From: Microvirga arsenatis
GTDB taxonomy: Bacteria; Pseudomonadota; Alphaproteobacteria; Rhizobiales; Beijerinckiaceae
Direction: 5' to 3'
NCBI RefSeq assembly: GCF_009910705.1
Contig: NZ_JAAAXJ010000002.1
Coordinates: 62,001-126,000 of the forward strand
Length of the DNA stretch: 64,000 nucleotides
Below the pieces are notes generated by a model. That model worked only from the letters and a program-made list of their open reading frames with translations. It was not told where the DNA came from and did not search any database. A program made the translations under genes and the position numbers. Below, piece after piece: positions 32,598 through 34,095 of this stretch (the first letter of the stretch is position 1; every line of letters starts with the position of its first letter).

Positions 32598-33685
32598 TGT
32601 CGATTGCGCCTCCCTCTGATCGCCTGAACGCCATCCTCGCCCGCCATGACATCATCACGGCGACGCTCAATGCCGGGCCCGACCCGGAAACCTTCGTTTC
32701 CCTCTCCCGCGAGCTCGCCGAACTCGACGGGGTGGTGGAGGCCATCCGCGCCTATCGGGCGATGGAGGACAACCTGAAGGGCCTCCAGGCCCTGATCGAG
32801 GATCCTTCGACGGATTCCGAGATGCGCTCGCTCGCCGAGGACGAGCTGCCCCAGGCCCGGGAAGACCTGGAGAAGGCGGCGCAGGACCTGCGCGTGATGC
32901 TGCTGCCCAAGGACGAGGCGGACGAGAAGAGCGCCATCCTCGAAATCCGCGCCGGCACCGGCGGCGACGAGGCCGCCCTCTTCGCCGGCGACCTGCTGCG
33001 CATGTACACCCGCTACGCCGACCTGAAGGGCTGGAAGACCGATATCGTCTCCGAGAGCGAGGGAACGGCCGGCGGCTACAAGGAAGTGGTGGTGGAGATC
33101 AAGGGACGCGGCGTGTTCGCCCGGCTCAAGTTCGAGAGCGGGGTCCACCGCGTCCAGCGCGTGCCGGCCACGGAGACCCAGGGACGCATCCACACCTCCG
33201 CCGCCACCGTCGCGGTGCTGCCGGAGGCGGAGGACGTGGACATCGTCATCAACGATGCGGACCTGAAGATCGACACCATGCGGGCTCAGGGAGCGGGCGG
33301 CCAGCACGTGAACAAGACCGAATCGGCGATCCGCATCACCCATATCCCCACCGGCATGGTGGTGTTCGTGCAGGACGAGCGCTCCCAGCACAAGAACCGT
33401 GCCCGCGCCCTGGCCCTGCTCCGCGCCCGCCTCTACGACGCGGAGCGCACCGCCAAGGACGCCGCCCGCGCCGCCGACCGCAAGGCGCAGGTGGGCTCCG
33501 GCGACCGCTCCGAGCGCATCCGCACCTACAACTTCCCGCAGGCGCGCGTGACCGATCACCGGATCAACCTCACCCTCTACAAGCTCGAGGAGGTGATGGC
33601 CGGCAATGCCCTGGACGAGCTGATCGACGCCCTCGTGACGGAGCATCAGGCCGCCCAGCTCGCCGCCCAGGACCAGGCGGCATGA
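32597..33685 (+). CDS. prfA: Peptide chain release factor 1
   Basis: This 362-residue RF1 ends translation at UAA and UAG. The stop-codon recognition PAT motif is at residues 190-192 (QRVPATETQGRIHTSA). The GGQ catalytic loop is at 234-236 (RAQGAGGQHVNKTESA). ERSQHKNRARALALL follows. It overlaps ptsP by one base and fosX by four (ATGA at 33682-33685), which suggests translational coupling. Confidence 0.98.
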   Translation: MSIAPPSDRLNAILARHDIITATLNAGPDPETFVSLSRELAELDGVVEAIRAYRAMEDNLKGLQALIEDPSTDSEMRSLAEDELPQAREDLEKAAQDLRVMLLPKDEADEKSAILEIRAGTGGDEAALFAGDLLRMYTRYADLKGWKTDIVSESEGTAGGYKEVVVEIKGRGVFARLKFESGVHRVQRVPATETQGRIHTSAATVAVLPEAEDVDIVINDADLKIDTMRAQGAGGQHVNKTESAIRITHIPTGMVVFVQDERSQHKNRARALALLRARLYDAERTAKDAARAADRKAQVGSGDRSERIRTYNFPQARVTDHRINLTLYKLEEVMAGNALDELIDALVTEHQAAQLAAQDQAA

Positions 33686-34095
33686 TCGAGGGCCTCAGCC
33701 ACATCACGCTCGTTACCCGCGACCTGAACCGCATGGCCGCCATCGTCGAGGGGGCCCTCGGCGGCCGGGAGATCTACTCGTCCGGAGACGACACATTCTC
33801 CCTCTCCCGCGAAAAGTTCTTCGACGTGGGCGGGCTCTGGATTGCCGTGATGGAGGGCGAGAGCCTCCCCAGCCGAACCTACAACCATATCGCCTTCAAG
33901 ATCCCGGCAGCCGCCATTGACGAGTACCGGCAGCGGATCGAGGCCCTGGGGCTGGAGTTCCGCGAATCGCGCCCCCGGGTCGAGGGCGAGGGCCATTCGC
34001 TCTATTTCTACGACGACGACAATCACCTGTTCGAGCTGCACACCGGCACCCTCGAGGAGCGGCTGGAACGCTACCGGCAGGGCCGAAATCCTTGA
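33682..34095 (+). CDS. fosX: Fosfomycin resistance hydrolase FosX
   Basis: This 137-residue vicinal-oxygen-chelate metalloenzyme of the FosX type opens the fosfomycin epoxide with water using Mn2+. The metal ligands His7, His69 (TYNHIAF) and Glu118 (NHLFELH) and the general base Glu44 (LSREKFF) all fall at the same numbers as in known FosX. This separates it from the thiol-using FosA and FosB. The gene overlaps prfA by four bases and prmC by four (TTGA at 34092-34095), so it is embedded in the release-factor operon. A housekeeping epoxide-hydrolase role is possible. Confidence 0.92.
   Translation: MIEGLSHITLVTRDLNRMAAIVEGALGGREIYSSGDDTFSLSREKFFDVGGLWIAVMEGESLPSRTYNHIAFKIPAAAIDEYRQRIEALGLEFRESRPRVEGEGHSLYFYDDDNHLFELHTGTLEERLERYRQGRNP

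Follow-up and report, generated by a model that had tools for sequence, protein, structure and literature searches.

Several enzymes related to the protein described here are known. FosX and the FosA and FosB thiol transferases are placed together in the vicinal oxygen chelate superfamily; for FosX, a dependence on Mn(II) and a glutamate that is essential as the general base are reported (PMC4790336). Two FosX enzymes, from Listeria and from Mesorhizobium loti, have the nearest solved structures by sequence (2p7k and 1r9c, respectively). The Listeria enzyme (lmo1702; structures 2p7k-2p7q) is encoded by a chromosomal core gene of its genus and gives intrinsic resistance: its deletion lowers the fosfomycin MIC, and the gene is described as fitness neutral without the drug (PMC6122793). 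The account in PMC6122793 that we draw on does not place this gene in a release-factor operon, and the Listeria "prfA" that it mentions is a virulence regulator, unrelated to the RF1 gene prfA discussed below. The M. loti enzyme is reported to be promiscuous and weak on fosfomycin (PMC6122793), and its gene is already known to lie in the phn (C-P lyase) operon (PMC12413358, PMC6122793). In Mesorhizobium japonicum R7A and M. ciceri CC1192 the deletion of fosX leads to a lower fosfomycin MIC; resistance is only partly lowered, and other mechanisms are reported to remain (PMC9973854).

The region studied here, called the window, is the whole stretch of 64,000 nucleotides (G000:C12:62001-126000) from a 5.05-Mb genome of Microvirga arsenatis. 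It contains a run of four genes on the plus strand, ptsP, prfA, fosX and prmC, where successive genes overlap by 1 to 4 nt (TAATG, ATGA and TTGA). The first gene of the run codes for a ptsP-like PEP-utilising enzyme (30330-32597, +; PF02896, PF05524, PF00391 and GAF). Its TAA stop (32595-32597) overlaps the ATG at 32597, most likely the start of prfA. The prfA gene (32597-33685, +), for peptide chain release factor 1, scores 494 bits against TIGR00019 (cut-off 423) when scanned from 32618, and it stops with the TGA at 33683-33685. The only start candidate near the 5' end of fosX (33682-34095, +; 137 aa) is the ATG at 33682, inside the prfA stop, so that the two genes share the ATGA at 33682-33685 (+). 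The fosX stop is the TGA at 34093-34095, and the TTG at 34092 is the sole start candidate found nearby for prmC, giving the shared TTGA at 34092-34095 (+). Last comes prmC (34092-34940, +), for the release factor N5-glutamine methyltransferase, which scores 262.8 bits against TIGR03534 (cut-off 199) and also matches PF17827.

A first-pass annotation of the window had described fosX as coupled in this way to both neighbours, and the anatomy is confirmed: the open reading frame is real, and both ATGA and TTGA are stop/start overlaps of the kind (4 or 1 nt) by which coupled pairs are recognised. Of the spacings between serial genes in prokaryotes, a 4-nt overlap is reported to be the most frequent (PMC10666635), so the mere presence of such overlaps is ordinary. 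The overlap of prfA and fosX nevertheless goes beyond chance, since it is kept in all 37 loci of the genus that carry the gene (see below).

On its 5' side the run is neighboured by a Na+/H+ antiporter gene, a methyltransferase gene on the opposite strand and an aspartokinase-type gene, and on its 3' side by a DUF4167 gene. A family scan of six neighbouring proteins gave no match to mobile-element families. Beyond the DUF4167 gene lies an ORF of 1542 aa (36295-40923) with many glycine-aspartate repeats that look, by eye, like the RTX type.

Judged from its profile matches, solved relatives and predicted model, the sequence at 33682-34095 is a gene of the FosX family, annotated as a FosX-type fosfomycin hydrolase. 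The protein scores 202.4 bits against NF000222 (FosX/FosE/FosI; cut-off 170) and covers positions 1-127 of the 127 in the profile. It thereby shares an NCBIfam family with FosI and FosE, which are 54-58% identical and plasmid-borne, with clinical bacteria among their hosts. FosA and FosB share the fold according to Foldseek, but are only 26-32% identical to the model among the matches listed, and the protein falls far under their family cut-offs (80.8 of 171 bits for the FosB model PRK04101; 57.6 of 180 bits for Fos_GSH). The AlphaFold2 model, for which 29 sequences were aligned, has a pLDDT of 88.6. Its best match in PDB is Listeria FosX (2p7p, 65% identity), and the 22 best matches are all FosX chains with TM of about 0.8-0.9. 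Identity to the model is 60-65% for Listeria FosX, which shares the catalytic positions, and 59% for M. loti FosX (1r9c), also among the PDB matches.

Four residues that the first-pass annotation had named as catalytic or metal-binding, H7, E44, H69 and E118, are all present at the positions claimed. They are invariant in all 29 aligned sequences, that of the window included, and in the 35 Microvirga copies compared, a set used also for dN/dS that omits G036 (with an in-frame insert) and M. subterranea (fused). T9, Y67, S106, Y108 and R127 are likewise invariant in the 35 copies, while E126, which is mutated in 2p7q, is a glutamate in 34 of them. We take H7, H69 and E118 to be the metal ligands and E44 to be the base, following the first-pass annotation and general knowledge of the family.

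Within the genus a FosX match (E <=1e-12) is found in 37 of 48 genomes, always on the same contig and strand as prmC, and no Microvirga genome has a second one at E 1e-12. In all 37 carriers fosX is located between prfA and prmC; 31 of these loci were read by genome, and six (G272, G273, G274, G276, G277 and G278) via named loci whose contig positions coincide with theirs. The overlap with prfA, either ATGA or GTGA, is present in 37 of 37. At the other end, using predicted start codons, fosX and prmC share a 4-nt NTGA overlap in 29 carriers and a longer overlap in three, are apart in four and fused in one. The distance between the FosX and PrmC matches is at most 30 nt in 33 carriers, and 121, 192, 572 and 755 nt in the others. 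Elsewhere in the genome of the window (G000:C34:130438-130803) there is a weak relative of FosX with 35% identity and an in-frame TAG.

Outside the genus the surroundings of fosX are different. Among the best 80 of 209 confirmed loci, prfA and prmC adjoin fosX in all 29 Microvirga loci, and neither gene is found in the flanks, up to 4 kb to either side, of any of the 51 non-Microvirga loci. In a draw of 219 genomes from the family, FosX was found in 22, namely all 11 of the drawn genus members and 11 of the 208 others; these 11 non-genus genomes contain 12 fosX loci, and prfA or prmC lies within at most 1.5 kb of none of them. Further, fosX is absent from 20 prfA-prmC intervals of five other genera, which were picked by hand (nearest genera, unusual gap lengths), not at random, among the matches listed for the 219 genomes. 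Most of these intervals are short or look repetitive, and one, in G172, is about 1 kb long with an open frame on the opposite strand. In four others of the 20, all from genus g36 (L204-L207: G218, G204, G254 and G230), the slot is filled by a small ORF whose repeats look PsiF-like by eye.

To follow the inheritance of the gene, we compared trees. In the tree of prfA+prmC all but one of the 11 non-carriers join the 37 carriers in a single clade with support 100/100; the exception, G007, groups with other genera. The fosX tree includes 36 carriers (G036 is omitted, and M. subterranea is trimmed to its FosX part). Of its nine starred splits, seven recur with a star in the tree of prfA+prmC, and no starred split of that tree contradicts any of the nine. 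Compared with each gene alone there is one conflict, solisilvae with ACRRW for prfA and the place of roseola for prmC. In a wider FosX tree, with 21 of the 37 carriers, the Microvirga proteins and two database fusions form one clade (96/94, in a tree with few columns and many weak forks), and next to it lie a protein from Aestuariivirgaceae and the lineage that holds the copies from phn operons. The prfA+prmC tree is consistent with a single gain and about nine losses; ten changes are needed, and nine of them are forced by starred branches. The fit between the trees and the single Microvirga clade argue for one insertion, likely in the ancestor of the Microvirga core clade, followed by vertical descent and repeated loss.

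The median dN/dS is 0.069 for prfA, 0.146 for fosX and 0.190 for prmC, so fosX is constrained at least as tightly as prmC. These medians are based on 595 pairs per gene, of which 595, 532 and 539, respectively, were usable; pairs with dS >=1.2 were dropped (63 of 595 for fosX and 56 of 595 for prmC). The GC of fosX is 0.645 versus a mean of 0.672 for the ORFs of the window, about one standard deviation lower, while its GC3 is 0.87 versus 0.758. A lower codon score than that of fosX is seen in 35 of the 46 ORFs of the window, and its codon usage is native.

These properties bear on the idea that a mobile resistance gene recently landed in the operon by chance. FosI and FosE, its relatives on plasmids, and the patchy presence of FosX outside the genus (11 of 208 genomes) would agree with such a capture. 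Native codon usage, genus-wide descent and the six neighbours free of mobile-element families do not, and a plasmid search at E 1e-40 gave 23 records, the best with only 65.6% identity. On codon usage, tree fit and plasmid search we rule out a recent capture, and give it next to no chance. That the gene is chromosomal and no recent arrival, as first proposed, is thus upheld by its codons, purifying selection, single clade, tree fit and lack of a plasmid relative above 65.6% identity. The first-pass annotation had also called the gene ancient, and had named a gene-free interval in relatives and a deviating base composition as signs against its proposal. The empty interval is indeed found in relatives, whereas the composition is not odd. 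What remains of "ancient" is a long residence that is as deep as the genus and no deeper, given the 20 hand-picked intervals without fosX in other genera and the 11 Microvirga genomes that lack it: fosX is old within its genus, but not within its order.

The other home of the gene is the operon for C-P lyase. Of the 51 nearest loci outside Microvirga, 29 have fosX flanked by phnI and phnJ, with all three genes on one strand, and in one representative locus PhnG, PhnH, PhnI and PhnJ were confirmed by Pfam. The same phnI-phnJ position is seen in G080, from the same family (one of the 12 loci read). The M. loti gene, from a neighbouring FosX lineage, is wedged inside an operon just as the Microvirga gene is, but in that for C-P lyase instead of between prfA and prmC. 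We consider it likely that Microvirga fosX derives from the FosX lineage whose other members are found in operons for C-P lyase. The rhizobial phnG-H-I-fosX-J-K cluster contained in a record titled Bacillus subtilis SK6B4 (L154) groups with Pseudochrobactrum; this record is likely mislabelled or contaminated.

Such neighbours would suit a metabolic epoxide hydrolase that opens a natural epoxyphosphonate for C-P lyase, with fosfomycin resistance as a by-product, and so would the promiscuity reported for the M. loti enzyme from the phn operon (PMC6122793, PMC12413358). For Microvirga, however, we find this role unlikely. None of the 29 Microvirga fosX loci has a phn gene in flanks of up to 4 kb, and no PhnJ is found in the genome of the window. 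In the genus PhnJ is present in only 13 of 48 genomes, 11 of the 37 carriers and 2 of the 11 non-carriers; fosX therefore does not track C-P lyase. This census weakens a phosphonate role in Microvirga, and together with the phn-free loci it indicates that the Microvirga enzyme is uncoupled from C-P lyase. One genome, G019 (VF16), has ten PhnJ matches; it is 10 Mb in size with an estimated contamination of 18%.

The 11 genomes without fosX show what is left at the junction. Six of them (G009, G020, G026, G032, G275 and G279) have a common 22 nt from the prfA stop to the prmC start. In five of the six, an overlapping start opens a frame of nine codons whose stop again overlaps the start of prmC, while in G020 this frame is interrupted. 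The frame of G026 reads MIERQGPTP, that is, the first three codons of FosX followed by a FosX-like tail, and therefore resembles an in-frame deletion. The six genomes occupy five places in the tree. A single deletion shared by descent was rejected, as constraining them to one clade on prfA+prmC gives a p-AU of 6.8e-32. The scar may thus be either one deletion allele spread by recombination or the same deletion recurring. A nearest-neighbour comparison of segments, meant to reveal short-tract recombination, gave no clear signal either way, and no microhomology forcing identical junctions was seen by eye. Among the other non-carriers, an overlapping ATG runs straight into prmC in G271, and in G021 and G007 prfA is separated from prmC by a short gap. 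The gaps in G028 (322 nt) and G002 (119 nt) contain palindromic repeat sequence, by eye; a search of both for pseudogene remnants gave no fosX match at E 1e-3. In the systems tested in PMC10666635, gaps of 20 nt nearly abolish reinitiation, and therefore the nine-codon minigene might, as a guess, preserve the coupling between prfA and prmC.

At the junction with prmC, fusions also occur. In M. subterranea fosX and prmC form a single open frame of 422 aa, in which PrmC alone could still start at an internal ATG. Two further fused proteins, P0121 (430 aa) and P0123 (480 aa), represent a separate FosX lineage, and each of the three frames exceeds both the FosX and the PrmC cut-off. Unless the M. 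subterranea frame is a sequencing indel, the fusion would have arisen in at least two lineages. PF04480 (DUF559) domains are also fused ahead of PrmC, in P0138 (M. lenta) and P0144 (a JGI protein); the junction is therefore fusion-prone, and fusion is not particular to FosX. An ORF that by eye is PF04480-like also lies between fosX and prmC in one locus (L081, in G014). In another (L080, in G036), fosX (954-1472, - strand) has a 114-nt in-frame insert with two hairpins, adding 38 codons, and still exceeds the FosX cut-off; the insert is similar to palindromic elements known to insert themselves in frame into genes.

Fusions and overlaps could mean that FosX acts together with PrmC or RF1, in a complex or a joint response, and that they fix the ratio of the proteins. 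The prfA overlap in 37 of 37 carriers and the natural fusions in M. subterranea, P0121 and P0123 are in line with this, as is the reported enrichment of overlapping pairs for subunits of complexes (PMC10666635). Still, fosX was lost about nine times while prfA and prmC persisted, gaps of 121-755 nt separate it from prmC in four of 37 carriers, and PF04480 domains are fused to PrmC as well. We therefore regard such a partnership as quite improbable. A related proposal is that FosX and PrmC form one unit of expression and assembly, to which termination-dependent UGA overlaps, side-by-side birth, fusion in two lineages and, after loss, a minigene relaying ribosomes from prfA to prmC would all belong. 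UGA is read by RF2, and RF2 is a substrate of PrmC. This proposal seems just as improbable to us.

The first-pass annotation had gone further and suggested that the enzyme may be linked to the output of translation. The repeated losses and the separation from prmC in four carriers speak against this, as does the effect on drug resistance reported for family members in Mesorhizobium (PMC9973854) and Listeria (PMC6122793). We find no support for a function in translation, because fosX is dispensable, often lost and sometimes parted from prmC by inserts; a link to translation is possible, with little support.

The reading that we find probable is that fosX was inserted once in the core clade and codes for a predicted fosfomycin hydrolase that is always on, as its synthesis would depend on how the release-factor operon is expressed. 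Overlapping gene pairs are reported to be translationally coupled (PMC10666635), and ribosomes that terminate on prfA would begin anew at the fosX start codon within its stop; the amount of FosX would therefore be fixed relative to that of RF1. The enzyme would open the oxirane of fosfomycin by addition of water, using a metal held by H7, H69 and E118, and E44 as base. The genome of the window encodes a MurA with the motif GGCAIG, which we take to be the Cys115-type, drug-sensitive form, and hydrolysis would protect this MurA. The drug may come from soil neighbours, against which the RF1 operon would provide steady expression of FosX. The gene would need no function in translation. Against this reading, no GlpT was found above the cut-off in the genome of the window, so entry of the drug by this route is not expected.

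Given the drop in MIC reported for the Mesorhizobium (PMC9973854) and Listeria (PMC6122793) deletions, and the retained GGCAIG motif, intrinsic protection is the simplest mechanism. By analogy with these species, Microvirga FosX is predicted to hydrolyse fosfomycin and to protect its host. Against this prediction, the Microvirga protein adjoins in the tree the M. loti lineage, whose enzyme is reported to be weak on the drug (PMC6122793). Against the whole reading, 11 of 48 genomes in the genus do without the gene, its GC is slightly low, and there is one conflict with each single-gene tree.

In the titles and abstracts listed from the open-licence literature, there is no account of fosX between prfA and prmC or of a FosX-PrmC fusion. 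The home in the release-factor operon, the fusions and the constant 22-nt scar are new, while the position is a novel form of two known things, a FosX that is core to its genus and a FosX nested in an operon. Here a gene for a predicted antibiotic hydrolase has been absorbed into a housekeeping operon across a whole genus. With the phosphonate-operon lineage next to it, the origin of an intrinsic resistance gene becomes traceable from operon to operon. The fusions and the constant scar provide handles on whether the position in the operon is a matter of convenience or of function. Finally, resistance catalogues that score every fosX as acquired will misread soil Microvirga.
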